A program made the translations under genes and the position numbers. This document shows positions 46,351-60,709 of a stretch of 64,000 nt of DNA, in pieces. A model generated the notes under the pieces. It saw nothing but the letters and a program-made list of their open reading frames with translations, did not search any database and was not told the origin of the DNA. The stretch comes from Clostridia bacterium (GTDB taxonomy: Bacteria; Bacillota; Clostridia; Oscillospirales; Acutalibacteraceae): NCBI GenBank assembly GCA_017407995.1, contig JAFQVM010000014.1, forward strand, positions 112,711 to 176,710, read 5' to 3'. Numbering within the stretch: the first letter of the stretch is position 1; every line of letters begins with the position of its first letter.

Positions 46351-47292
46351 TTACACCATCAACTGTATGAGTTTCTCAATAAATAAGTTTTCATCAACCT
46401 CTGTTATGACCTCTGCATTTGCCTTGTACATATCGGAAACTGCCTCATACGTTCTGTCTTGTCGATAAAAAATTACCTGCCCGTGCGTCTCATTCCTTTG
46501 GGTACAGCATTTGCAGTAGCAGTTTACACTGTCAAGAACAAAGCCGTCCCACAGGGCCGCTGCCATGGCAAGGGCATCCGGCAAATCTACCATATATGTC
46601 TGCCGTGTATTCAATTTAAATTGTAAGAGTTGGGATGTTGCTCTTTCAAGGAACTTTCCAATCTTATTTCCTCCAGCAAGAGCTGCAAGTTCCTTCTTGC
46701 CAAGCCCTGTTTTTCCTGTGCAAAGGTCAAAACCGGCTATTGTAATCGGTATGCCGGACTCAAGCATTACAGCATAGGCTTCGGCATCAATAAAAACATT
46801 GAACTCTGCTACCGGTGTTGCGTTACCAGGGCCAAAGCCCGGTGTGCCCATTGACCAGATGTGCTTTGCTTTTTTCATTGTTTCTCGGTCTGTAAGAACA
46901 GCCAGCGCAATATTTGTGGCAGGTCCAAGAACGACAAGCTCAACCTCATCAGGATATTCGCTTACTGTGTCGAGAATAAAATCAACCGCTCTTTTGGTTT
47001 GTGCTGAACGTTTCGGATTAATTATTCCACAGTCGCCCATGCCGTCTGCACCGTGGACGCTGATGGTTTCTTTTCTTTCGCTTAAAAGCGGACATCCGGC
47101 TCCGATATATACAGGAGCATCAGCTTCACAGACTTCCAGAGTCATCAAAGCGTTTTTAGTAGCCTGCTCAACCGAAACGTTGCCCGCAACAGTAGTTACT
47201 CCAAGCAAGTCAATATTCCTGTTCAGCGCAGCAATAATAATGGCGGCGGCATCATCGCTGCCTGTATCTGTATCAATAATAAACTTTCTCAC
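46351..47292 (-). CDS. Nucleoside hydrolase (IunH family), second copy
   Basis: N-ribohydrolase fold protein of 313 residues, paralogue of the C-terminal domain of the upstream gene. The calcium-binding N-terminal motif DTDTGSDDA is intact (residues 7-15). Where typical IU-type hydrolases have a catalytic His-Asp pair, it has a VDLPDALAMA segment: the Asp is kept but the preceding residue is Pro. A Cys-rich segment CYCKCCT near residue 267 is unusual and echoed in the paralogue. Starts with GTG (47292), eight bases after AGAGGA, inside the end of the upstream gene, so the two are translationally coupled. Substrate unknown; a ribosyl compound other than inosine or uridine is possible. Confidence 0.85.
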   Translation of the reverse strand: MRKFIIDTDTGSDDAAAIIIAALNRNIDLLGVTTVAGNVSVEQATKNALMTLEVCEADAPVYIGAGCPLLSERKETISVHGADGMGDCGIINPKRSAQTKRAVDFILDTVSEYPDEVELVVLGPATNIALAVLTDRETMKKAKHIWSMGTPGFGPGNATPVAEFNVFIDAEAYAVMLESGIPITIAGFDLCTGKTGLGKKELAALAGGNKIGKFLERATSQLLQFKLNTRQTYMVDLPDALAMAAALWDGFVLDSVNCYCKCCTQRNETHGQVIFYRQDRTYEAVSDMYKANAEVITEVDENLFIEKLIQLMV

Positions 47293-48814
47293 CGTCAAGT
47301 TCCTCTCTCATGCCTATTGACTCCTTAAGGCGTTTTTTAAACCTTTCGGGGTCGATTTTTTTTACTACTGTAGAAAAGGTTTCGGGAATATCGTATTTAA
47401 CAGAAAAAGGGGCGCTTATATCGCAGATTATAACCTGACCGTACGACGGCACCTCTTTTGTGCAGCAATAGCAATGCGCTGTAACAGTTTCAAGAACCAC
47501 ATCCGGCCAGATTGCCGCAGCCATAGCAACAGCATCAGGTAGGTCAACATACGGCACGCCTGTCAGATTTTCGTTATAGGCCAATCTTGTTTTGTTGCAG
47601 TCAACAATGAATTTTCCAAGCCGTGATACCGACAGCTCAGCAAGGTCATCGGGATTAAGTGCAGCATCGCCAAGACAAAGGTCAAAGCCTGCAATAGTTA
47701 TAGGGATTCCACTGTCAAGCAAAACAGAATAGCTCTCTGCATCAACAAAAACGTTGAACTCTGCTACGGGAGTTATATTTCCCGGACCGAAACCGCTTGT
47801 GCCCATTGACCAGATATGTTTTACCTTTTTCATGGTCTTACGGTCTTTCATTATCGCAAGCGCAATGTTTGTGACCGGACCGAGAGCAACAAGCTCTATT
47901 TCATCGGGGTTTGCTGCAACGGTTTCCAGTATAAAATCAACTGCTCTCTTTTTTTCGGGCATGCGTGAGGGATGAATCAGACCCATGTCACCCATGCCGT
48001 CAGCACCGTGAACATTATCGGCTGTTACAAGCTCCCGCATAAGAGGTTTTGAAGCACCGGGATAAACAGGAATAACCGCTCCGCATTCCTCAACTGTTTG
48101 AAGAGCGTTTTTGGTTGTTTGCTCCAACGGGATATTTCCGCCGATGGTTGTTATACCAAGAACATCAATATCGGACTCCAAAACAGCCATAATGAGAGCC
48201 ACAGCATCATCACTGCCCGTATCTGTATCAATAATAAACTTTCTCATGGTTACTCCCTGCCTTATATTGTCACTTGAAACGCTGTCCGTTTTTAGTGACA
48301 AATTGTACTTCACTCTACAAATAAAAAATGCTCGGCTTTGCCTATAAAGATTTAGTATTTCAATTTTTGTTTTAGCATACCCTACTGTTTGAGCTGTTCC
48401 TCCGTTACCGCCGTCATAGTAGCAAATAATTAGAGAGGAATTATCCACCATATATTTGTTTCTGTCAAAATAACATCCCGGACAATAATGTTCATGCATA
48501 ACTATTACTTCATCGCATTGGGTAAGTGTATCTTTATACTTTTGACGCAAATTCTCTCCCCAGCGGTTCTCTTGACCTTTAAACGGAACAACCGCAATAA
48601 GACATATCTCGTTCTCTTTTTTTAATTTTAACACCTGACTCGCTGCTATTAAATCAAAACCAAAACAAGCACCAAAAAGAAAAGTATGGAATCCGTTACT
48701 GATTGCTTTACGAATCTCCATGTTCAAATCCTTTTCAAGTTTCTTTAATTTCTCTCCTTTAGGCAACCGATTTGTTCTATGGCCATTAAAACAGACAGTT
48801 TTATTTTGCTCCAT
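47273..48814 (-). CDS. SLOG (DUF1273/YpsA-like) domain fused to a nucleoside hydrolase
   Basis: A 513-residue open frame with two domains. Residues 1 to about 160 form a SLOG/DUF1273 domain: TVCFNGHRTN, FGACFGFDLIAA, AVVPFKGQENRW, RNKYMVDNSSLIICYYDG and GGTAQT match the family, which binds nucleotides or ADP-ribose-like ligands. After a 30-residue linker, residues 190-513 are a nucleoside hydrolase with DTDTGSDDA, VDLPDAVAMA and a CYCCT segment. An internal ATG at 48247 has its own CAGGGAG site, so a separate 324-residue hydrolase could also be made. Start at 48814 follows GGGAGTG. A second hydrolase gene overlaps its end; a divergent HTH gene and two operator-like palindromes lie upstream. 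No fusion of this kind is known to me. Confidence 0.8.
   Translation of the reverse strand: MEQNKTVCFNGHRTNRLPKGEKLKKLEKDLNMEIRKAISNGFHTFLFGACFGFDLIAASQVLKLKKENEICLIAVVPFKGQENRWGENLRQKYKDTLTQCDEVIVMHEHYCPGCYFDRNKYMVDNSSLIICYYDGGNGGTAQTVGYAKTKIEILNLYRQSRAFFICRVKYNLSLKTDSVSSDNIRQGVTMRKFIIDTDTGSDDAVALIMAVLESDIDVLGITTIGGNIPLEQTTKNALQTVEECGAVIPVYPGASKPLMRELVTADNVHGADGMGDMGLIHPSRMPEKKRAVDFILETVAANPDEIELVALGPVTNIALAIMKDRKTMKKVKHIWSMGTSGFGPGNITPVAEFNVFVDAESYSVLLDSGIPITIAGFDLCLGDAALNPDDLAELSVSRLGKFIVDCNKTRLAYNENLTGVPYVDLPDAVAMAAAIWPDVVLETVTAHCYCCTKEVPSYGQVIICDISAPFSVKYDIPETFSTVVKKIDPERFKKRLKESIGMREELDGEKVYY
48245..48260 (-). promoter_or_regulatory. Internal ribosome binding site and start codon inside the SLOG-hydrolase fusion
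   Basis: CAGGGAG (48259-48253) is five bases before ATG (48247-48245), in frame, at the exact start of the hydrolase domain. It would permit separate translation of a 324-residue nucleoside hydrolase. Confidence 0.6.
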
Positions 48815-48833
48815 AAAAATCACTCCCAGAACA

Positions 48834-51004: not shown

Positions 51005-51043
51005 GCAAGAAAAAACACGGGAAACTAATGTTTCCCGTGTTTT
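51005..51043 (-). terminator. Terminator after the 51056 gene
   Basis: Fourteen-base stem (51012-51025 against 51030-51043) with a four-base loop and T-rich minus-strand flank, 12 bases past the stop. Confidence 0.85.
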
Positions 51044-51055
51044 GAAACTTTTGAT

Positions 51056-51862
51056 TTACTGGACATATGAACCGACCAGCATCATATACTCACCAAGCTG
51101 AGCGCCGAATTCGGGTGCGCCCTCCATGATAAGCTTTTCAGCCTTAACGGACTCAAGCATATCGTCAATGCTCATAAGGATACCGAGTGCGCTGTCAAGA
51201 TTGTTGAAACGCATGGTGAAGAAAGGCATTGCCCTCTTATAAACGCCTCTGCCCGCTCTGGACTTGCCTGCCTTTATACGAAGGTAAGCAGATATCTCCT
51301 CATGACCGTCAACAGCCCATGAGTAAACTCTGTCAGGGCTCTTGAGAGTCCAGCCGTGAACATCGGGATGTCCGAGCTTGTTGAGCTGGCTGATACCGCT
51401 CGAAAGCAGGTAGAAATAGCACTTTGTAAGCAAGAGCTTTGTGTCCTCATCCTCAGGGATAGACTTAGCTGTAAGTAAAGAAGACATCTTAAGAAGAACC
51501 ATCATAAACGACACGAACAATCCGGTATGCTTTGCGATACCCTTCATCTTCGGCAATGTTTTCGGGCCGATTGAGCCCTTGAAAAATGCGTTCATTGTCT
51601 CAATGCTCTTAAACTCAAGCTCCACATGAGGATTAGCGTCAACCTTATCATTATGTACAACCCACTCACCGGAGTTGACAACATAGTGCGTTGCAACCTT
51701 GCCCTCAGGGCTCTCAGGGTCAAGTGCGCTGACCTGAATAACTGCGTGTGCGTGCTCAAACTTCTTTTTAAGCGACGGAACATCGTTTGCTATAACCTTG
51801 ATGAGCGGAAGAACTGCGTTGAGAAAAAGTTTATTTGTGTAAATCTCATCTCTTGAAGCCAT
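51056..51862 (-). CDS. Double SCP2-like protein, last gene of the transketolase set
   Basis: Protein of 268 residues with no signal peptide, built of two halves that each resemble an SCP2 (sterol carrier protein 2-like) domain joined by a helical middle. Half 1 ends in VDANPHVELEFKSIETMNAFFKG (the strand-helix pattern of SCP2), half 2 in MRFNNLDSALGILMS; the middle (about 110-165) contains a hydrophobic helix FVSFMMVLLKMSSLL that may line a lipid pocket. It shares this layout with the 55299 gene. Bound ligand unknown; SCP2 domains bind acyl chains, sterols or hydrophobic intermediates. It follows the transketolase C-subunit gene by 36 bases on the same strand. Confidence 0.6.
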   Translation of the reverse strand: MASRDEIYTNKLFLNAVLPLIKVIANDVPSLKKKFEHAHAVIQVSALDPESPEGKVATHYVVNSGEWVVHNDKVDANPHVELEFKSIETMNAFFKGSIGPKTLPKMKGIAKHTGLFVSFMMVLLKMSSLLTAKSIPEDEDTKLLLTKCYFYLLSSGISQLNKLGHPDVHGWTLKSPDRVYSWAVDGHEEISAYLRIKAGKSRAGRGVYKRAMPFFTMRFNNLDSALGILMSIDDMLESVKAEKLIMEGAPEFGAQLGEYMMLVGSYVQ

Positions 51863-51898
51863 ATAATCATTCCTTTCCTGGGAAATCGGGGTTAACTG

Positions 51899-52909
51899 TT
51901 AAACCTCGTCGTCCCAATCATCATCAAGCTCAAAGTCTTTGCCCATAACCTCACGGACAGCGTCGATAATACCGTTGGAATCGATGCCGAGAATAGACAT
52001 GATATCCTCATGAAGGCCGATAGGTGCAAACTGGTCGGGGATACCGAGCTGTTTGAATGCACAGCCCTTACCGGACTCGATAACGACCTCTGCAACTGCG
52101 CTGCCAAGACCGCCTACTACGTTGTGGTCCTCAACTGTGATGATACGGCGAGTATCGGAAACAGCCTTGAGGATAGCCTCACGGTCGATAGGTTTAATGG
52201 TGTGCATATTGAGAACACGAACTTTAAGTCCGTCAGCATTCTCAAGGAAGTTTGCAGCCTGGAGTGCCTGGAATGCACATGAGCCGCAAGCGATAATTGT
52301 AAGGTCTGTACCCTCTTTAAGAGTTACTGCCTTGCCCACTTCAAAGCCGTAGTCACTGCTGGGATAGAGAACACGGTCAAAGCCTCTGTTGATTCTGATA
52401 TAGAACGGACCGGGTGTCTCATAAGCGGCACGGACAGCGTTAACTGTCTCCATACCGTCTGCAGGGCAGATAACTGTAAGGTTGGGCATTGCACGTGCAA
52501 CAGCCATATCGTTGATAGCATGGTGTGTTGAGCCTGCCTGACCGAAAGATGTACCTGCGTGTGTAGCGATAATCTTAGCATTGACATTCTGATAGCAGAT
52601 ATCTGTCTGAAGCTGGTCAGCACTTCTCAGAGATGCGAAAACAGAGAAGGTTGAAAGGAAAGGTACAAGACCAGCCTTTGCCATACCTGCTGCCATACCA
52701 AACATGTTCTGCTCAGCGATACCGACGTTAAAGAATCTGTCCGGATAAGCCTGACCGAACATACCTATTTTTGTTGATTTACCGAGGTCAGCTGTAAGAG
52801 CGACTATCTCGGGATGCTCTGCCCCAAGTTCAACAAGAACCTTGCCGTAATATTCCGCAGTAGAAAAGTTAACGGAGTCAGCAGCTGTATAAGTCATTCC
52901 GCCTGCCAT
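51899..52909 (-). CDS. Transketolase, C-terminal subunit
   Basis: Second half of a split, thiamine-diphosphate transketolase: pyrimidine-binding and C-terminal domains, 336 residues. The catalytic Glu is in VGIAEQNMFG; THAGTSFGQAGSTHH, CPADGMETV and VEDHNVVGGLG are family motifs. The ATG at 52909 has GGAGGG upstream and is one base after the stop of the N-subunit gene, so the subunits are made together. Such split pairs occur for central transketolases and for specialised C2-transfer enzymes. The very acidic end (DDDWDDEV) is unusual. No other pentose-phosphate genes are near, which argues for a special role. Confidence 0.92.
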   Translation of the reverse strand: MAGGMTYTAADSVNFSTAEYYGKVLVELGAEHPEIVALTADLGKSTKIGMFGQAYPDRFFNVGIAEQNMFGMAAGMAKAGLVPFLSTFSVFASLRSADQLQTDICYQNVNAKIIATHAGTSFGQAGSTHHAINDMAVARAMPNLTVICPADGMETVNAVRAAYETPGPFYIRINRGFDRVLYPSSDYGFEVGKAVTLKEGTDLTIIACGSCAFQALQAANFLENADGLKVRVLNMHTIKPIDREAILKAVSDTRRIITVEDHNVVGGLGSAVAEVVIESGKGCAFKQLGIPDQFAPIGLHEDIMSILGIDSNGIIDAVREVMGKDFELDDDWDDEV

Positions 52910-52910
52910 A

Positions 52911-53783
52911 TTATTCGCCCTCCTTCTCTGCCCGTGCCTTACGAGCCTCGTAATAAGCCTCAAGGCTCTCTATAGCCTTGTTGTATTTTTCTTCGTCAAT
53001 TGCGCCGTAGTGCCAGAGGTAGTTGTCCTCCATAAAGTCAACACCTGCGCCCTTAATTGTGTTAGCAATAATCATAACAGGTGAATCGGTCTCATTAGCA
53101 AGAGCAAAGTCGATAGCCTCGCAAAGCTCCTTGAAGTTGTGACCGTCAACCTCTTTGACAATAAAGCCGAATGCTCTCCACTTATCAGCAAAAGGCTCAA
53201 GCTTCATGACTTCTTCTGTCGGACCGTCAATCATACACTTGTTGCGGTCAACAAAAGAAATAAGGTTTGTAGCCTTGAAGTGAGATGCTGCCATAGCTGC
53301 TTCCCAGTTTGAACCCTCATCGCACTCACCGTCGCCGAGGATACAGTAGGTCTTATAGTCCTTACCGAGAACTCTTGCAGCAAGAGCTGTGCCGAGTGCT
53401 ATCGGCAGACCGTGACCGAGTGAACCTGTAGAAGCGTCAACACCGATAACCTTGTTAGAGTCAAGATGGATACCCATCTTTGAGTTTGAGTGGTTGAAGG
53501 TCTTAAGCTGTTCGGGGTCGTTCCAACCGTAGTCAACAAGTACGGATGCAAGCGCTACGCCTGCGTGACCCTTACTGAGGATGAACCTGTCTCTGTCCTC
53601 CCAGTTGGGATTCTCAACATCAAGGTTGAGATACTTGTGATAAAGAACGGTCAGCATATCCATTGAACTCATACCGCCGCCGATGTGCGCACTGCCTGCC
53701 CAGTATGTAGTATCAAGGCAGAGTCTGCGCAGCTCGTGAGCCTTTTTCTCAAGAGCTAACCATTCCTGCTTTGTTAATGGCAT
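52911..53783 (-). CDS. Transketolase, N-terminal subunit
   Basis: First half of the split transketolase, 290 residues, binding the diphosphate of thiamine diphosphate through GDGECDEGSNWEA and a later Asn in DRNKCM. SKGHAGVAL, GSLGHGLPIALG and NTIKGAGVDFMED carry the conserved His and Lys residues. The final WHYGAI segment differs slightly from the usual WHGKAP. Start ATG at 53783 with AAGGAGG upstream. It is preceded by a 170-base leader with a hairpin (53821-53847) and by the terminator of the aminotransferase gene, so it starts a second transcript. Confidence 0.92.
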   Translation of the reverse strand: MPLTKQEWLALEKKAHELRRLCLDTTYWAGSAHIGGGMSSMDMLTVLYHKYLNLDVENPNWEDRDRFILSKGHAGVALASVLVDYGWNDPEQLKTFNHSNSKMGIHLDSNKVIGVDASTGSLGHGLPIALGTALAARVLGKDYKTYCILGDGECDEGSNWEAAMAASHFKATNLISFVDRNKCMIDGPTEEVMKLEPFADKWRAFGFIVKEVDGHNFKELCEAIDFALANETDSPVMIIANTIKGAGVDFMEDNYLWHYGAIDEEKYNKAIESLEAYYEARKARAEKEGE

Positions 53784-53820
53784 TTACTTTTCCTCCTTGC
53801 AGAAAATATTTATTATCTGA

Positions 53821-53847
53821 GTGATGCGTCACTCTTTAACGCATCAC
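53821..53847. promoter_or_regulatory. Hairpin in the leader of the transketolase genes
   Basis: Nine-base arms GTGATGCGT/ACGCATCAC (53821-53829, 53839-53847) with a nine-base loop, 36 bases before the start codon. No T run on the minus strand. May be a regulatory or protein-binding structure. Confidence 0.5.
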
Positions 53848-53954
53848 AAAGCTTCCGAAAACTAATTCTATGCCGAAATTGCCCGTCACAGAACAAATTG
53901 CATAAATCAAATAAGACAATCCTTGAAAATTATGTTCTATGTGTATTATATTAA

Positions 53955-53997
53955 CACAAAAAACCCCGTCTTGTAAAGCACAAGGCGGGGTTTTTAA
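53955..53997 (-). terminator. Terminator after the aminotransferase gene
   Basis: Stem with AACCCCG/CGGGGTT ends and one G-T pair (about 53962-53973 against 53981-53992), followed by a T6 run on the minus strand. It separates the aminotransferase transcript from the transketolase transcript. Confidence 0.8.
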
Positions 53998-54023
53998 CAA
54001 TTAATTTTAACTCATTTAGAAAA

Positions 54024-55286
54024 TTATCCAAGCTCAGGATGATTTTTGCGTACAACCGAGAATGCTTCCTCTGCAACCTCAACTGTATGAGCGATATCCT
54101 CGTCGGTAAGAGAGGCGTTCATGAAGTGGTTGTGGTGGCTGGTAACAAAGATTCCTCTCTTTACCATCTCAGCAACCCACTCCTGATGCATCATCAGAGA
54201 ATCGTCATCCGCCAAACGCAGATAGAACAATGCCGGCTCGCCGGAAACTACAAGATTCAAACCGTTGTTAGCAGCTGCAGCCTTAAGTCCGTTTGTAAGC
54301 TTTAAGCCCTTCTCTCGGAAGAGAGCGGGTGTATTGAGCTGCTTCATCTTGTTGATGCAGGCGATACCTGCAGCAAACGGAACAGCACTGAGCCAATAGC
54401 TACCTGTATATGAAAGTCCGCTGATAGCTCCCTTGAGGAAGTCCTTACCGCAAAGAGCAGATACGTTCCAACCGTTAGCAAGTGCTTTACAGAAGCAGAT
54501 GAGGTCTGCATCAAAGCCGTAGTAGTGGTCGCTACCTGCAAGGTCAAGACGGAAGCCTGCACGCACGTCATCAATAATAAGAACTATGCCGTTCTTTGTG
54601 CAAAGCTCACGAATCTTCTGCCAATAACCGTCAGCAGGAAGCTCATTGTCAAGAAAGTTGCCGTGCATATAGGGAGTTGCGATAAATGCTGCTATCTCGC
54701 CGTCGTTCTCAGCGATAGCATTTTCAAAAGCTGAAACATCATTCCAGGGGATATAGATGTTGTTTGCAACATCCTCTTCGATAACACCCGGATAGTCAAC
54801 TTTCTGAGTCCACGGTGCAACACCGTGATAGAAACCGTTAACAAAAACTATCTTCTTGCGGTGAGTTGCGGCTCTTGCAGTCATTATAGCTGCGGTTGTA
54901 ACGTCGCCGCCGTTCTTTGCAAAGAATGCCCAGTCAGCACAGTTAACTGTATCAACAAGCAACTCTGCAAACTCTATCATCTTTGTAGACGGAGAAGTCG
55001 TGCAGTTACAGATTTTTGCCTGCTCCATAGCTGCAGCATCAACATCGGGGTCATTGTAACCCAAAACGTTCGGGCCGTATGCACACATATAGTCAATAAA
55101 TTTATTGCCGTCAACATCCCAGAAGTAGGAGCCCTGTGCTCTGTCACCGAAGAGCGGGAATGCGCTGACAGGAATAAAACAGCCTTCTGCCGGGCCGAGA
55201 TGTCCGTAAACGCCTGAGGGAATTACCTTTGCGGCTCTGTCAAACATCTCTCTGCTTTTTGTATAGTTGTTTATTTCAAAGCTCAT
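54024..55286 (-). CDS. Class III PLP-dependent aminotransferase (glutamate-1-semialdehyde aminomutase-like)
   Basis: Pyridoxal-phosphate enzyme of 420 residues. Catalytic Lys267 lies in CFCKALANGW; the Asp pair that binds the PLP ring nitrogen is in LIIDDVRAGFR (239-240); phosphate-binding AKNGGDVTTAA (124-134). The nearest known type is glutamate-1-semialdehyde 2,1-aminomutase, but the DD in place of the usual DE and the lack of other heme genes argue against HemL. It could move an amino group onto a ketone or aldehyde made by the transketolase. It follows the 55299 gene by 12 bases and ends in a terminator. Confidence 0.85.
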   Translation of the reverse strand: MSFEINNYTKSREMFDRAAKVIPSGVYGHLGPAEGCFIPVSAFPLFGDRAQGSYFWDVDGNKFIDYMCAYGPNVLGYNDPDVDAAAMEQAKICNCTTSPSTKMIEFAELLVDTVNCADWAFFAKNGGDVTTAAIMTARAATHRKKIVFVNGFYHGVAPWTQKVDYPGVIEEDVANNIYIPWNDVSAFENAIAENDGEIAAFIATPYMHGNFLDNELPADGYWQKIRELCTKNGIVLIIDDVRAGFRLDLAGSDHYYGFDADLICFCKALANGWNVSALCGKDFLKGAISGLSYTGSYWLSAVPFAAGIACINKMKQLNTPALFREKGLKLTNGLKAAAANNGLNLVVSGEPALFYLRLADDDSLMMHQEWVAEMVKRGIFVTSHHNHFMNASLTDEDIAHTVEVAEEAFSVVRKNHPELG

Positions 55287-55298
55287 TGCAGTCCCTCC

Positions 55299-56057
55299 TT
55301 AAGCCAAGTACAGAGCTACTCTGTCAAGCAGTCTGTTAAGATTATCTATCATCGAAATCATGCCCTTCATGGTAATGGCACCCGTACCTATGCAAGCGAC
55401 AGCGTTGATATTGCCGTCAAAGAGGTCTCTTGCAAGTTCAATAGATGCAAATTCCATGGCTGCACGGGGATTTTCGCTTGCCTGTTTTATTGTTATAAGG
55501 CGACCGTCCTTTGCACGGATAGTTGCAGCAGGACCGTTCTTTATGCTGAAGCCTATCTCACCGTTGACAATGTGGTCAGCGGAGAACTGGCCAATCTTAT
55601 CGTTGTTGGCTATCTGCGAAATAGCAACAGCGATAGTATAGAACATCAGCGTTGTGCTCTTTTCAAAGAAGTCCTTATTCTTAAGGTCCTTAGGGTCAGG
55701 ACGCATATACTTTGAAAGCAGGTCGGTAAGAGGAGTAAATGTCTTTAACAGGAACTTTATGTGCTGGAATCCCTTTGACGGAATAGGAGTCACCGTTCCG
55801 TCGATAAGACCGTTGAACTTTTCACAAGAGGAGAATGGCAGTTTAACGTCGCACTTGCTTACACCCTGTTCCATTCTGCATTTTCCGTTGTTAAAGGTTA
55901 TTGTTGCGCTGGGACCGTCCTTGACCTCAAAGCCTATTGAGATGGGCTTTGCGTTTGTAAGCATGGCGCTCGCCTCGGGAACAAGCTCGCAAAGATTCTC
56001 CAACGTTCCCAAAACAGCGTAAAGGTTTATGTATGCCAGTGTTTTTTGGTCAATCAA
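55299..56057 (-). CDS. Double SCP2-like protein, first gene of the aminotransferase set
   Basis: Protein of 252 residues with two SCP2-like halves. Half 1 (about 25-110) has the strand pattern IGFEVKDGPSATITFNNGKC; half 2 (about 165-252) has IGFSIKNGPAATIRAKDGRL, RAAMEFASIELARDLFDG and a final GAITMKGMISMIDNLNRLL helix, a clear SCP2 pattern. The two strand segments are alike, so the protein is probably an internal duplication. It is distantly related to the 51056 protein. Ligand unknown, likely a hydrophobic chain. It is first in a transcript with the aminotransferase, from a promoter at 56143-56171. Confidence 0.68.
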   Translation of the reverse strand: MIDQKTLAYINLYAVLGTLENLCELVPEASAMLTNAKPISIGFEVKDGPSATITFNNGKCRMEQGVSKCDVKLPFSSCEKFNGLIDGTVTPIPSKGFQHIKFLLKTFTPLTDLLSKYMRPDPKDLKNKDFFEKSTTLMFYTIAVAISQIANNDKIGQFSADHIVNGEIGFSIKNGPAATIRAKDGRLITIKQASENPRAAMEFASIELARDLFDGNINAVACIGTGAITMKGMISMIDNLNRLLDRVALYLA

Positions 56058-56330: not shown

Positions 56331-58502
56331 TCATTGTCTGAAAGTGCTCGTTCCGCTGCCGATTTCAACGCTCTTTTCACCCAAGATAACCGTAGCAGTA
56401 CAGCCATCGGGAACTGTAAATTCGTAGGTGGTTTCGCCGTTCTCCGTCACCCATTTTGAGCGCACCTCGCCAAAGCGGGAATCTATCGATGCATCTACCC
56501 AGGTGATACGGCTGTCTGTAAGCGGACGGAAAATTATATGCCTGAATGCAGGGTTTTCGGCATCGACATTTATTCCTGCCATTGCTCCGAACATCCAATC
56601 TGCAACAGCGCCGTAAGCGTAGTGGTTAAATGAGTTCATATCCTCCGACCACATACTGCCGTCGGGCTTGATTCCGTCCCAATGCTCCCACATGGTAGTA
56701 GCACCCTTTGTAATCGGATAGAGCCATGACGGATATTCACGTCTGAGCATAAGGTCATACGCCGTTTCAACATACCCACTCTCGCTGAGTGCATGAAGAA
56801 TATACGGTGTACCGACAAAGCCCGTCATCAAATGCCCGCTCTCTTTAACAAGCTCATTTAATTGCTTTGCGGTTTCCTGCGGATTGTCTGTCAGATTGAA
56901 ATATAATGCAAGCGCACAAGCTGTCTGTGTAGGTACTTTCAGACGTCCGTCCTCCATGTACTCACGTCTGAAAGCAGATGCTGCAAGTTCAGGCAGATAA
57001 GAATACTCTCTTGTGTCCTTACCGAGTATCTCGGCCATCTTTAAAAACAGAGCCGAAGAGTATGAGAAATATGCTGTTGCGATAAGGTTTTCGTCCGTAG
57101 ACCCTTTATAGCTACCCTCGTGTGCATCAAGACCAAGCCAGTCTCCGAAATGACCGTCTCTGTCACGAAGACCGTCCTTTGAGTGCTCGTGCATCCAGTC
57201 TATCCACTGCTTCATGGACTCATACTGGTCGGATATGATATCTCTGCTGCCATATGTCAGGTACATCTGCCAAGGACAGATAACAGCTGCATCCGCCCAT
57301 GCTGCAGAGGCTCCGTCATCAAAGTACGAAAAAGAATTCGGAATTATGTGGGGCACACGTCCGTCGTCAAACTGGTCTGCCGCAAGGTCGTGCAACCACT
57401 TTTTAAAGAAGCGCTCAACATCAAAATTATAGCTCGCTGTGCGCACAAAGACCTGTGCATCACCCGTCCAGCCAAGTCTCTCGTCACGCTGTGGACAGTC
57501 TGTCGGAATATCAAGGAAGTTTCCTTTTTGTCCCCAGATTATATTTTCATACAGCTTATTGAGCATATCATCGGAACATTTAAATTGTCCTGTACGGCGC
57601 ATTTCAGAGTGGACAACTATTGCTGTAAAGTTCTCTTTTTTAACCTCATCAGGCCAGTTTTCAAGTTTTATGTATCTGAAACCGAAGAAAGACAGTGCGG
57701 GCTTATAAACGTGGCGCTCGCCGTCACATATAAATCTGATTTCTGCCTTTGCGCCACGGTAGTTATCGGTGTAAAAATTACCGTCACGGTCAAGCACCTC
57801 AGCATGATATATGACAGCCTCATCGCCTGCCTTGCCTTGTATTGCAAACTCCACATAGCCAGTCAGATTCTGTCCGAAATCTATGACCGTTTCGCCCGAT
57901 GGGGTTGTTATTATCTCTTTTGCGGTGATGCGCTCGTTCTCAACTACCTTTTCGCCCTCCTGCGGAATAAGAAAATCTTTGGACATGGGTACCTCTATGG
58001 CAGGCAAAGCTTCGGATGCTGAGAAAGTTGCATCGTAAATATCGCCATTATATATGTTTGAGTAACGAAGCTTGCTCTCACGTACAAGCCATGATGAGTC
58101 AGTAATAACATCCTGTTCAGAGCCATCCTCATATTCTATATGTATACACGCAAGAAGCGCCATATCCCTGTGACCGAGATATTCATTCGACTCCCCCTTT
58201 GTACTGCGAAAACGCCAGCCTTGTCCCACAGTTATTTCAATAGAGTTGTTTTCCTTTATATATTCGGTTACATCATAGCTCTGTACTTGAAGTCGGTGCT
58301 CATAAGCAGTCCAACCCGGTGCAAGAACGAAGTCGCCTACTCTTTCGCCGTTAATATGTGCCTCGTACACACCCAGAGCAGTAACCTCCAACACAGCGCT
58401 TTTTATGTTTTTGTCACAAACAAAGTCTTTTTTGTAAACAGTTCCGCCGCAAAAACCACTGTATCTGTTTTTTATCCATTGTGTGTTCAAAATGTTCTTC
58501 AT
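56331..58502 (-). CDS. Alpha-L-rhamnosidase, GH78 family
   Basis: Inverting glycosidase of 723 residues that removes terminal alpha-L-rhamnose. An N-terminal lectin-like beta-sandwich (ALGVYEAHINGERVGD, APGWTAYEHRLQ) precedes a large helical (alpha/alpha)6 barrel with DCPQRDERLGWTGDAQVF, which holds the acid Glu, and a C-terminal beta-domain. No signal peptide, so it acts on imported oligosaccharides or flavonoid-type glycosides. Starts with ATG at 58502. No terminator with a clear T run was found after it, and it does not share a transcript with the SCP2 genes, which have their own promoter. Confidence 0.92.
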   Translation of the reverse strand: MKNILNTQWIKNRYSGFCGGTVYKKDFVCDKNIKSAVLEVTALGVYEAHINGERVGDFVLAPGWTAYEHRLQVQSYDVTEYIKENNSIEITVGQGWRFRSTKGESNEYLGHRDMALLACIHIEYEDGSEQDVITDSSWLVRESKLRYSNIYNGDIYDATFSASEALPAIEVPMSKDFLIPQEGEKVVENERITAKEIITTPSGETVIDFGQNLTGYVEFAIQGKAGDEAVIYHAEVLDRDGNFYTDNYRGAKAEIRFICDGERHVYKPALSFFGFRYIKLENWPDEVKKENFTAIVVHSEMRRTGQFKCSDDMLNKLYENIIWGQKGNFLDIPTDCPQRDERLGWTGDAQVFVRTASYNFDVERFFKKWLHDLAADQFDDGRVPHIIPNSFSYFDDGASAAWADAAVICPWQMYLTYGSRDIISDQYESMKQWIDWMHEHSKDGLRDRDGHFGDWLGLDAHEGSYKGSTDENLIATAYFSYSSALFLKMAEILGKDTREYSYLPELAASAFRREYMEDGRLKVPTQTACALALYFNLTDNPQETAKQLNELVKESGHLMTGFVGTPYILHALSESGYVETAYDLMLRREYPSWLYPITKGATTMWEHWDGIKPDGSMWSEDMNSFNHYAYGAVADWMFGAMAGINVDAENPAFRHIIFRPLTDSRITWVDASIDSRFGEVRSKWVTENGETTYEFTVPDGCTATVILGEKSVEIGSGTSTFRQ

Positions 58503-58723: not shown

Positions 58724-59626
58724 ATGAAGAAAATTCTTGCATTGATTATGGCTCTCGCAATGGTTTTCTGCCTTGCAGCATGTGGCGGAAACGGCGACAA
58801 GGATGAGACAACAACAGCTCCCGCCGGTGAGACTGTTGCAAACGCTGAGGGTACAGAGGCTGCTCCCGTAGACGGCACAGAGGCTGCTTCAGGTGACACA
58901 ACAGACGTTTCAGGCGATGCTTCCACAGAAGCTTCCACAGAGGCTGATGCTTCTGAGAATGACCCCGCAAACGATGCACCTGCTACAGGCGACCTTACAA
59001 AGGCTCAGTTTGTTGCTCTTCTCAACGCTGAGACTGCAAAGATTGCAAAGAGCGGCAGCTATTCTCTTAACAGAAACTGCACCTACATAAGAAATCTTGA
59101 TGTTGGTAAAAACACAGACAGACTTAATGACCTTATTAAGACTATCGATAAGAATTCTGACCTCAACAGCGTTGTCGGCGGATTCCTCGGTATAGGCACA
59201 AAGACCGCTAACCTCCCGAAGAACAAGGCTGATGTTGACAGCGATTATATAATCAAGGCTACTTCTCTTAGAGAGAGCGACCTTGCTACATTCAGCGGTT
59301 CTAACGGCGTTTACAAGTTCACACTTGCTGATGCTAAGAACCCGAAGAAGACAGGTGCTACACCTTTCTCAAGATTTACAAACGACTTCATCACACATGA
59401 AGAAGTTGTTACAAGCATCGCTGAATTCACACCGTTAATCAAGGTTAGCAGCTCAACAGTTAACTACACTAAGATTCAGGGTGAAGTTACTGTTAAGGAT
59501 GGCAAGATTACTAACATCAGCTATTCTTATACTTTCGATGCAGCTCTTACTCTTAAGCTTGTTGTTACCATCAACGGAAACGGTGCTGCTAAGACCACAA
59601 ATACATATTCAAACATCAAATACTAA
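58724..59626 (+). CDS. Secreted lipoprotein of unknown function
   Basis: Lipoprotein of 300 residues: signal peptide MKKILALIMALAMVFCLAAC with lipobox LAAC (Cys20), a long linker rich in Thr, Ala, Glu and Asp (about 24-88), then a globular domain with ITNISYSYTFDAALTLKL near the end. No family recognised. The layout (lipobox, GETVAN segment, acidic linker, beta-rich domain ending in a GKI-x5-Y strand) resembles the 32802 and 59810 lipoproteins, suggesting a distant relationship. AAGGAG precedes the ATG. Its codons are highly biased (GCT, AAG, ACA), suggesting strong expression. Confidence 0.78.
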   Translation: MKKILALIMALAMVFCLAACGGNGDKDETTTAPAGETVANAEGTEAAPVDGTEAASGDTTDVSGDASTEASTEADASENDPANDAPATGDLTKAQFVALLNAETAKIAKSGSYSLNRNCTYIRNLDVGKNTDRLNDLIKTIDKNSDLNSVVGGFLGIGTKTANLPKNKADVDSDYIIKATSLRESDLATFSGSNGVYKFTLADAKNPKKTGATPFSRFTNDFITHEEVVTSIAEFTPLIKVSSSTVNYTKIQGEVTVKDGKITNISYSYTFDAALTLKLVVTINGNGAAKTTNTYSNIKY

Positions 59627-59646
59627 TTTATAATTAGTAGCTTATT

Positions 59647-59680
59647 CCTCCGCATCCTCGGATGCGGAGGTTTTTTGTTT
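59647..59680 (+). terminator. Terminator after the 58724 lipoprotein gene
   Basis: Eleven-base GC-rich stem (59647-59657 against 59660-59670), two-base loop, and a T6 tail. Confidence 0.93.
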
Positions 59681-59738
59681 TTATACAACATGTTATTAAA
59701 AGTTTACAATTAAGTGCATAAAATTTATTATTCTGATA

Positions 59739-59768
59739 TTGACCTTTTGACCGTCTGAGGATTAAAAT
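59739..59768 (+). promoter_or_regulatory. Promoter of the 59810 lipoprotein gene
   Basis: TTGACC (59739-59744), 18-base spacer, TAAAAT (59763-59768), the same design and flanking bases as the promoter at 32741. Confidence 0.65.
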
Positions 59769-59809
59769 ATATATATACATTTTGAAAATATAGAATGGAG
59801 CAAAAAGAA

Positions 59810-60709
59810 ATGAAAATAAAAATTAAAAGACTTTCGGCACTTGTGCTTGCACTTGCACTTGTTTTTTCCTTTGCCGCTTGTAAAAACAACGGCAACGGCG
59901 ATGAGGAAAGCACTACAAATGCCGTAGGCGAGACTGTTGCCGCAGGCACAGAAGAAACCAATAATTCTTCAGACGATGAAACCACCGCCTCAACAGACAG
60001 CAGTGAGCCTTCAACAGAAGAAAACTCAACTGACGCAGGCAGCTCTGAGCAAAAGCCCGTTTCAAACGACACAACCTCCACGCAAAAGGGCTTAAACTCT
60101 ACCGACATTAAAAAGGTTGTTGCGTTTTATAAAGCCGCTGCTAAAAAGACCGGCAGCCTTGATGCTGAGCAGACCATGTCGCTCGCATATATAGACTGCA
60201 AACCTCGTAATAAAGCCGAAGAATATTTTATCGGAGCTTTCGAAGGCATTGCAAAAGCCGCTCTTAAAGCAAACTCCGTTGAGAGAACCGATGTTCCCGG
60301 AAATGACCAAGCTCTTGAGAGCGGCGACATTACCTCTGCAAATGCAGTTGTAAGCGGCGACTACACGATAGTCACCCTTAACGTCAAGACACAGGAAGAT
60401 AACCAGCATACAAAAGACAGCGGAATAGGTCCTGTCGGTCATGCTGTCGGCACGTTGGGCGATGTCACTTTGGCCCTCAACGAGATTCCCGCAGTTACAG
60501 TTGATTACTCTCAGGGAAGCATTATCCTCAAATACACCAACGCCAAGGTCGTTGCCAAGATTGACAACAACACCGGAAAAATCGTTTCCGGAACATGGGC
60601 TTACACCGTAACGGCTTCTCTTGCAAACCTGAAAGTAACCTTTTTAGGAATGGATATAGATATTGTCAGAATGGGCGGAGCAGTTGATTTTGTTGTTAAG
60701 ACAAAGTAA
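59810..60709 (+). CDS. Secreted lipoprotein, paralogue of the 32802 gene
   Basis: Predicted lipoprotein of 299 residues with lipobox SFAAC (Cys23), a Ser/Thr/Glu-rich linker (about 25-88), and a globular domain starting GLNSTDIKKVVAFYK. Closely similar over the whole domain to the 32802 protein, including RTDVPG, SGDITSANA, YTIVTLNVK, GPVGHAVGTLGD and the KIDNNTGKI-x5-W strand. Function unknown. ATG at 59810 is chosen because AATGGAG lies eight bases before it. The two genes are about 27 kb apart, so they are a dispersed rather than a tandem duplicate. Confidence 0.82.
   Translation: MKIKIKRLSALVLALALVFSFAACKNNGNGDEESTTNAVGETVAAGTEETNNSSDDETTASTDSSEPSTEENSTDAGSSEQKPVSNDTTSTQKGLNSTDIKKVVAFYKAAAKKTGSLDAEQTMSLAYIDCKPRNKAEEYFIGAFEGIAKAALKANSVERTDVPGNDQALESGDITSANAVVSGDYTIVTLNVKTQEDNQHTKDSGIGPVGHAVGTLGDVTLALNEIPAVTVDYSQGSIILKYTNAKVVAKIDNNTGKIVSGTWAYTVTASLANLKVTFLGMDIDIVRMGGAVDFVVKTK

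Follow-up and report, generated by a model that had tools for sequence, protein, structure and literature searches.

Within a 64,000 nt stretch of the genome of a Clostridia bacterium (contig JAFQVM010000014.1, assembly GCA_017407995.1; hereafter the window) we analysed a cassette of five genes that points to an undescribed way to make or break sphingosine-like lipids. In the direction of transcription the cassette encodes a double SCP2-fold lipid-carrier-like protein (SCP2a), a class III pyridoxal phosphate (PLP) aminotransferase (AT), the two subunits of a split transketolase (TkA and TkB) and a second double SCP2-fold protein (SCP2b). We tentatively read it as a module of sphingoid-base-type metabolism, i.e. 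of long-chain 2-amino-1,3-diols, that is independent of serine palmitoyltransferase (SPT) and would most likely work in the biosynthetic direction. The host genome has a size of 1.67 Mb and is 86% complete.

Conservation of the cassette was determined by scanning the contigs of GTDB genomes with an AT alignment. The loci analysed were the best 80 of at least 569 relatives. Their records carry titles such as Clostridia, Clostridiales, Oscillospiraceae, Ruminococcaceae or Firmicutes, with many of the samples from rumen, caecum, colon or rectum. The complete series SCP2a-AT-TkA-TkB-SCP2b was found in the same order and on the same strand at 66 of the 80 loci. Another 11 carried a partial cassette that was truncated by the contig end, and three (L037, L105 and L107; L denotes loci and G genomes) contained SCP2a-AT without a transketolase within the available DNA. 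Clustering of the neighbouring genes at the 80 loci and in the window recovered the five cassette genes in 66-72 loci and every other family in at most 11. Since the five genes recur while the neighbouring families vary, they form a conserved unit in varying surroundings. This conservation is far beyond chance; a lack of it would have spoken against the pathway proposed in an earlier reading of the sequence alone.

Genome samples provided a similar picture. SCP2a was detected in 11 of 295 genomes of an order-level sample, the window's own included, with AT adjoining in all 10 others, and in 3 of 391 genomes at class level. In the family sample cassette-type TkB was present in 17 of 60 genomes, in each case (17/17) with TkA and SCP2b alongside; the SCP2b of G313 was just 28% identical. 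In G052 and G313 the gene groups TkA-TkB-SCP2b and SCP2a-AT were located on separate contigs, and both modules were nevertheless present. Together with the internal terminator of the window, which lies at the same border, this split suggests a unit composed of SCP2a-AT plus TkA-TkB-SCP2b. AT was seen in 19 of the 20 genomes with a cassette TkB (the 17 of the family sample as well as G237, G265 and G052); in several of these AT was seen but not SCP2a. G332 contains TkA-TkB and no AT within 9 kb upstream, the stretch to which the search was limited. G657 possesses SCP2a-AT and lacks a cassette TkB. Plasmid-borne spread was considered and rejected, as a tblastn search of PLSDB with SCP2a gave no match at E ≤ 0.01.

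Pfam confirmed the class III assignment of AT (Table 1). Its closest solved relative is FumI (aminopentol aminotransferase, 6hbs), which was matched over nearly the full length with 302 bits, compared to 161 bits for the next structure, a glutamate-1-semialdehyde aminomutase. For the latter enzyme AT remained below the NCBIfam cut-offs (224.5 vs 398 bits for NF000818 and 203.5 vs 527.3 bits for TIGR00713). The PLP lysine K267 within the CFCKA motif was invariant (11/11). FumI acts on hydrolysed fumonisin B1, a long-chain sphinganine analogue with a 2-amino-3-hydroxy pattern, and passes its C2 amino group on to pyruvate (PMC2933618). The enzyme originates from Sphingopyxis, where it belongs to a fumonisin breakdown pathway. 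The host genome encodes another, distant class III aminotransferase with 33% identity to AT. At 10 of the 80 loci (L045, L053, L054, L057, L058, L071, L074, L075, L076 and L084) a second class III aminotransferase gene is found on the opposite strand, no more than a few kb away from the cassette. Its product is 29-31% identical to AT at these loci and 27% identical at L019 (L019:15051-17894), and in several cases it is found near a gene that by eye resembles a class II aldolase.

Based on structure models, both SCP2-like proteins have the SCP2 fold. The AlphaFold2 (AF2) models of SCP2a and SCP2b reached predicted local distance difference test (pLDDT) scores of 92.7 and 93.4, respectively, and both consist of double SCP2 folds. 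A Foldseek search of the PDB returned UbiJ-SCP2 as top match for SCP2a (E = 2.5e-5), and the best solved structural matches of the SCP2b model were SCP2 proteins as well. By profile comparison the two proteins are homologous to each other (hhalign, E = 2.8e-7). Against the Pfam family SCP2 (PF02036), SCP2a scored slightly below the cut-off of 21.3 bits (Table 1) and SCP2b had no Pfam match; at E ≤ 0.1 the family was matched by 28 of 43 SCP2a relatives (best 2.9e-6) and by 1 of 36 SCP2b relatives. A sequence-profile search of the PDB with SCP2a provided no SCP2 match and just three weak matches to xylanases (E 0.16-0.26), for which reason its fold is derived from the models and the weak Pfam matches. 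The earlier assignment of both proteins to SCP2 was thereby upheld in structure searches, with the Pfam cut-offs unreached. In ubiquinone synthesis the SCP2 domain of UbiJ/UbiT binds a hydrophobic intermediate, and separate SCP2 proteins serve alternative routes (PMC6747719). The cassette proteins resemble these SCP2 accessory proteins but carry two domains each, while UbiJ and UbiT have a single SCP2 domain and act in an unrelated pathway.

For TkA and TkB the Pfam models PF00456, PF02779 and PF02780 were all matched above cut-off, such that the thiamine diphosphate (ThDP)-binding, the pyrimidine and the C-terminal domain are present. The best solved relative of both subunits (242 bits for TkA, 280 bits for TkB) is the split-chain transketolase of Carboxydothermus hydrogenoformans (6yak/6yaj), which has the same two-subunit layout. 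The cassette transketolase is not the sole copy of the genome, which the sequence-only reading had listed among its possible refutations: an ordinary split pair with 43-45% identity to the cassette pair is located on contig C1. Towards the TkB of the window, cassette TkBs showed identities of at least 56% and other copies of at most 44%.

We compared individual residues among 84 distinct cassette TkB, 87 distinct cassette TkA and 25 distinct other TkB-like copies from relatives, using E. coli residue numbers placed by known motifs and by alignments. The catalytic equivalents E411 and H473 of TkB were kept in 84/84 sequences. In TkA the equivalents of H26, H66 and H100 were kept in 87/87 and that of H261 in 86/87, with one sequence unaligned at this position. 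Different residues were found around the acceptor: the D469-equivalent was Ala in 83 and Ser in 1 of the 84 cassette TkBs, the R358-equivalent was Ala in 71 (including the window), Ser in 6, Thr in 6 and Arg in 1, and the E468-equivalent was Gln in 82. The equivalents of S385, H461 and R520 were kept in all 84. Other TkB copies had Asp (23) or Asn (2; L185 and L186) at the D469-equivalent and Arg at the R358-equivalent in 19 of 19 aligned sequences (6 of the 25 were unaligned). One copy counted as ordinary, L187 (26% identity, 675-codon frame), is possibly a different ThDP enzyme, for example DXS. At R358, E468 and D469 the C. hydrogenoformans enzyme shows the residues R, E and D, as opposed to A, Q and A in the window. 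In TkA the G262-equivalent was Tyr in 86 of 87 sequences (one unaligned), as opposed to Gly in 22 of 24 other copies. R358 contacts the phosphate and D469 the acceptor hydroxyl. Judged from these residues, the cassette transketolase is altered at the sugar-acceptor site with its catalytic residues retained. D469E and D469T in E. coli transketolase raise the activity on aliphatic aldehydes, D477E in the yeast enzyme does so 50-100 fold, and yeast R528 (= R520) is a phosphate ligand (PMC5573996). Variants based on D469T are also the subject of PMC6310800.

In other families the SCP2a-AT pair has different partners. It adjoins an alpha-oxoamine synthase and a short-chain dehydrogenase in G112, G126, G270, G737 and G745, and in G036 and G041 the pair is present with the synthase and dehydrogenase genes on another contig. 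Three synthase copies were scanned, and in NCBIfam each of them scored best against an SPT model (516-536 bits); the next model reached 392-397 bits and was also an SPT model in two of the three. One synthase searched against the PDB was closest to bacterial SPT (402 bits). The two dehydrogenase copies scanned were closest to 3-ketodihydrosphingosine reductase (KDSR; 218-229 bits). SPT was found in none of the 20 genomes with cassette TkB, the window's own included (searches at E ≤ 1e-20 and E ≤ 1e-60; besides the incomplete host genome, G052 is 60% complete), and cassette-type TkB in none of the 7 SPT genomes with SCP2a-AT. This split of 20/0 versus 0/7 corresponds to a Fisher P of 1.1e-6, with G332, in which no AT was seen, among the 20. 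In family f20, 10 of 63 genomes have SPT, and these include all 4 genomes with SCP2a (P = 3.5e-4). The transketolase module seems to take the place of the SPT-KDSR-like genes beside SCP2a-AT. SPT-like genes were also observed without AT in G295, G327 and G334 (L153-L155), and without SCP2a in the f20 genomes G747, G235, G116, G130, G076 and G748, where the search covered SCP2a and not AT. Such Clostridia may make sphingolipids by the usual route.

The ATs of the two contexts are closely related. Between 7 rows from SPT contexts and 86 rows from transketolase contexts (the latter including L037 and L105, where no transketolase was seen; stops were unfiltered) the mean identity was 66%, and just three alignment columns separated the groups at the thresholds used: N/D94, F/V201 and Y/F221. 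Such a small number of separating columns suggests that AT probably catalyses the same reaction in both contexts. In the AT tree the transketolase-linked ATs form one clade (97/88, 22 rows) beside the SPT-linked ones; L107 is placed with the SPT-type ATs, and L037 and L105 fall inside the transketolase clade. The root of this tree depends on a single very long FumI branch and on weak forks.

In the pathway that we propose, the split transketolase would extend a long-chain aldehyde, its chain held by SCP2b, by a two-carbon ketol unit to give a 1,3-dihydroxy-2-ketone. The FumI-like AT would aminate C2 of this ketone, with the chain held by SCP2a, and produce the 2-amino-1,3-diol head. Both SCP2 proteins would hold the acyl chains such that the polar end is exposed to the soluble enzymes, as reported for UbiJ with ubiquinone intermediates. 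The main argument for the sphingoid reading is that a single transamination at C2 would join the product class of SPT-KDSR to that of the ketol transfer. Context strongly favours this reading, in which the long-chain acceptor, the reaction, its direction and the product are inferred. A more specific version would use serine as amino donor and its product hydroxypyruvate as ketol donor, i.e. the net reaction would convert serine and aldehyde into sphinganine and CO2, and the C2N unit would be the one that is drawn from serine in the SPT route as well. Hydroxypyruvate commonly serves as donor for transketolase (PMC5573996). This version would amount to a second origin of sphingoid bases, one based on transketolase, in which SPT and 3-ketosphinganine reductase are replaced, the hydroxypyruvate made by AT is condensed with a fatty aldehyde and AT aminates the product; we consider it rather unlikely in this full form.

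A number of points weigh against the synthesis of sphingoid bases by the cassette. The products of ordinary transketolase are 3-(S) (PMC5573996), whereas common sphinganine is the 2S,3R isomer. Unless the cassette enzyme differs in selectivity, it would lead to an uncommon stereoisomer, a base of the L-threo type. Polar or charged residues have been helpful at the D469 position, the published variants being E and T (PMC5573996); the cassette has Ala. Since the equivalents of R520, H461 and S385 are kept, much of the phosphate site remains and a phosphate on one of the substrates is possible. AT and SCP2a also occur together with SPT-KDSR, a setting in which there would be no need to aminate a ketone. 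Neither synthesis nor breakdown accounts for this in a simple way; base turnover or the setting of the C2 configuration are possible explanations. The matches of the SPT-like and KDSR-like genes fall below the NCBIfam cut-offs (640 and 400, respectively). Because the transketolase-linked ATs form one clade, the mutual exclusion of SPT and transketolase is probably close to one evolutionary event, a single replacement, and not 27 independent ones. Within the sample of family f1 alone (17 genomes with transketolase, 3 with SPT and 0 with both, of 60) the exclusion does not reach significance (P(0) = 0.36). Among the neighbour clusters no aldehyde-forming, N-acylating or head-group gene recurred beside the cassette. 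A 2-amino-1,3-diol made without SPT, as the sequence-only reading had proposed, gains from the FumI kinship of AT, the SPT/KDSR-like partners of SCP2a-AT, the cassette genomes in which no SPT was found and the two lost acceptor residues. Its simple version leaves the co-occurrence of AT with SPT unexplained, and its chemistry, chain length and direction are as yet deductions.

The main rival to synthesis is breakdown, which we regard as somewhat unlikely. AT would deaminate sphingoid bases from the host, food or other microbes, and the transketolase would use the 1,3-dihydroxy-2-ketone as ketol donor, such that a long-chain aldehyde is released and the C2 unit passes to an aldose or aldose phosphate; the SCP2 proteins would carry the bases. 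These are the identical two reactions in reverse, FumI itself is catabolic (PMC2933618), and many record titles denote gut or rumen samples. The kept equivalents of S385, H461 and R520 could still bind a sugar phosphate, but loss of the D469 and R358 equivalents would weaken an aldose-phosphate site. Breakdown would further allow a single direction of AT in both contexts, provided that the SPT genomes recycle their own base. However, the module that is replaced, SPT-KDSR, is biosynthetic, and the neighbour clusters, as judged by eye, include no recurrent linked gene for a transporter, an aldehyde dehydrogenase or a regulator. An even less probable alternative is a different amino-lipid. Here, the carbonyl substrates would be lipid-like and the product non-sphingoid (for instance a base epimerised at C2, a keto-lipid as end product or an amino-alcohol lipid of another kind), with AT mainly setting the C2 configuration in both contexts. 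This would account for the need of AT with SPT-KDSR and with transketolase alike, and SCP2 folds and FumI kinship demand only a lipid substrate; more steps would, however, be needed. Amino-sugar chemistry also has pairs of split transketolase and aminotransferase. A route in which the two enzymes of the cassette act on short sugars (of amino-sugar or 3-amino-5-hydroxybenzoate (AHBA) type) and the SCP2-like folds bind something else would fit the kept part of the phosphate site. We consider it very improbable given the lipid-carrier fold that both SCP2-like models retain, while the FumI kinship, the SPT/KDSR partners and the lost D469 and R358 equivalents point elsewhere. Chance linkage of an ordinary second transketolase to unrelated genes, for which the intact catalytic residues and the normal copy elsewhere in the genome could be quoted, has a negligible probability and is ruled out by the shared order at 66 of 80 loci in varied surroundings, the altered acceptor residues and the wide identity gap between cassette and other TkBs.

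Regarding known systems, we class the locus as a variant form of long-chain-base metabolism; proof of a transketolase entry reaction would go beyond that. Synthesis by the cassette would share its predicted product class with the canonical route via SPT and 3-ketosphinganine reductase, and elsewhere the SCP2a-AT pair is accompanied by SPT-like and KDSR-like genes. Synthesis by the cassette would differ in the enzyme that forms the C-C bond, which is a PLP enzyme in the canonical route and would be a ThDP enzyme in the cassette; no SPT was found in 20/20 genomes with the cassette transketolase. The polyketide-synthase-derived bacterial sphingolipids of PfSgaAB are likewise made by a non-canonical bacterial route, but still with an SPT-type alpha-oxoamine synthase, and no transketolase is mentioned in the text examined (PMC12134224). 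A literature search, in which subscription journals were little covered, found no report that connects transketolase to sphingoid bases or to this set of genes. Sphingolipid makers among genomes are commonly recognised by the marker SPT. If the transketolase route is true, many gut- and rumen-type Clostridia would be overlooked as makers or users of bioactive sphingoid-like lipids, and the cassette would provide a natural transketolase for aliphatic aldehydes, which is a goal of enzyme engineering. A transketolase-based breakdown route, if true instead, would likewise be new.

Table 1. Coordinates in the window and supporting evidence of the cassette genes and the terminators.
Feature	Position	Strand	Evidence
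SCP2a, double SCP2-fold lipid-carrier-like protein (predicted), 252 aa	55299..56057	-	TTG start, GGAGG 8 nt upstream; Pfam SCP2 20.2 bits; AF2; Foldseek
AT, class III PLP aminotransferase, FumI as closest solved relative	54024..55286	-	PF00202 8.6e-37; 6hbs 302 bits
Intrinsic terminator hairpin, AT/TkA gap	53959..53995	-	-20 kcal/mol, z -5.2, followed by T run
TkA, ThDP-binding subunit of split transketolase	52911..53783	-	PF00456 7.4e-45
TkB, pyrimidine-binding and C-terminal subunit of split transketolase	51899..52909	-	PF02779 1.3e-42, PF02780 1.2e-27 (longer raw ORF scored)
SCP2b, second double SCP2-fold protein (predicted), 268 aa	51056..51862	-	hhalign to SCP2a, AF2, structure matches
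Intrinsic terminator downstream of SCP2b	51012..51043	-	-20.8 kcal/mol, z -5.5

The arrangement described in the sequence-only reading, with all genes on one strand and a terminator after AT, was recovered in full when the open reading frames (ORFs) of the window were checked: all five were confirmed on the minus strand (Table 1). TkB likely starts at the ATG at 52909 rather than at 52963, which results in a protein of 336 aa. With terminators after AT and after SCP2b, this genome plausibly has two transcription units, SCP2a-AT followed by TkA-TkB-SCP2b. The spacing between AT and TkA is only ~30-100 bp in many relatives. A strong hairpin at 53815-53905 (z -3.4), separate from the terminator and directly upstream of TkA, is a possible operator or leader. 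Upstream of SCP2a the RNA folding was unremarkable (z -1.1).

In the surroundings of the cassette further genes were observed. At L016 (L016:14502-15521) SCP2b is followed by a gene that by eye resembles an NAD-dependent epimerase and had no NCBIfam match at 1e-10; a different gene of ~430 aa lies downstream of SCP2b at 6 other loci of the 80. In the window the gene that directly precedes the cassette, on the same strand, encodes an alpha-L-rhamnosidase (56331-58502). Two neighbouring ORFs at 46351-48823 resemble nucleoside hydrolases as judged by eye, the second of which reads as a fusion with an upstream domain in one long frame. Two lipoprotein-like ORFs of ~300 aa lie in tandem at 58724-60709; their N-terminal parts are acidic and rich in Ser/Thr, and their family matches are only weak.

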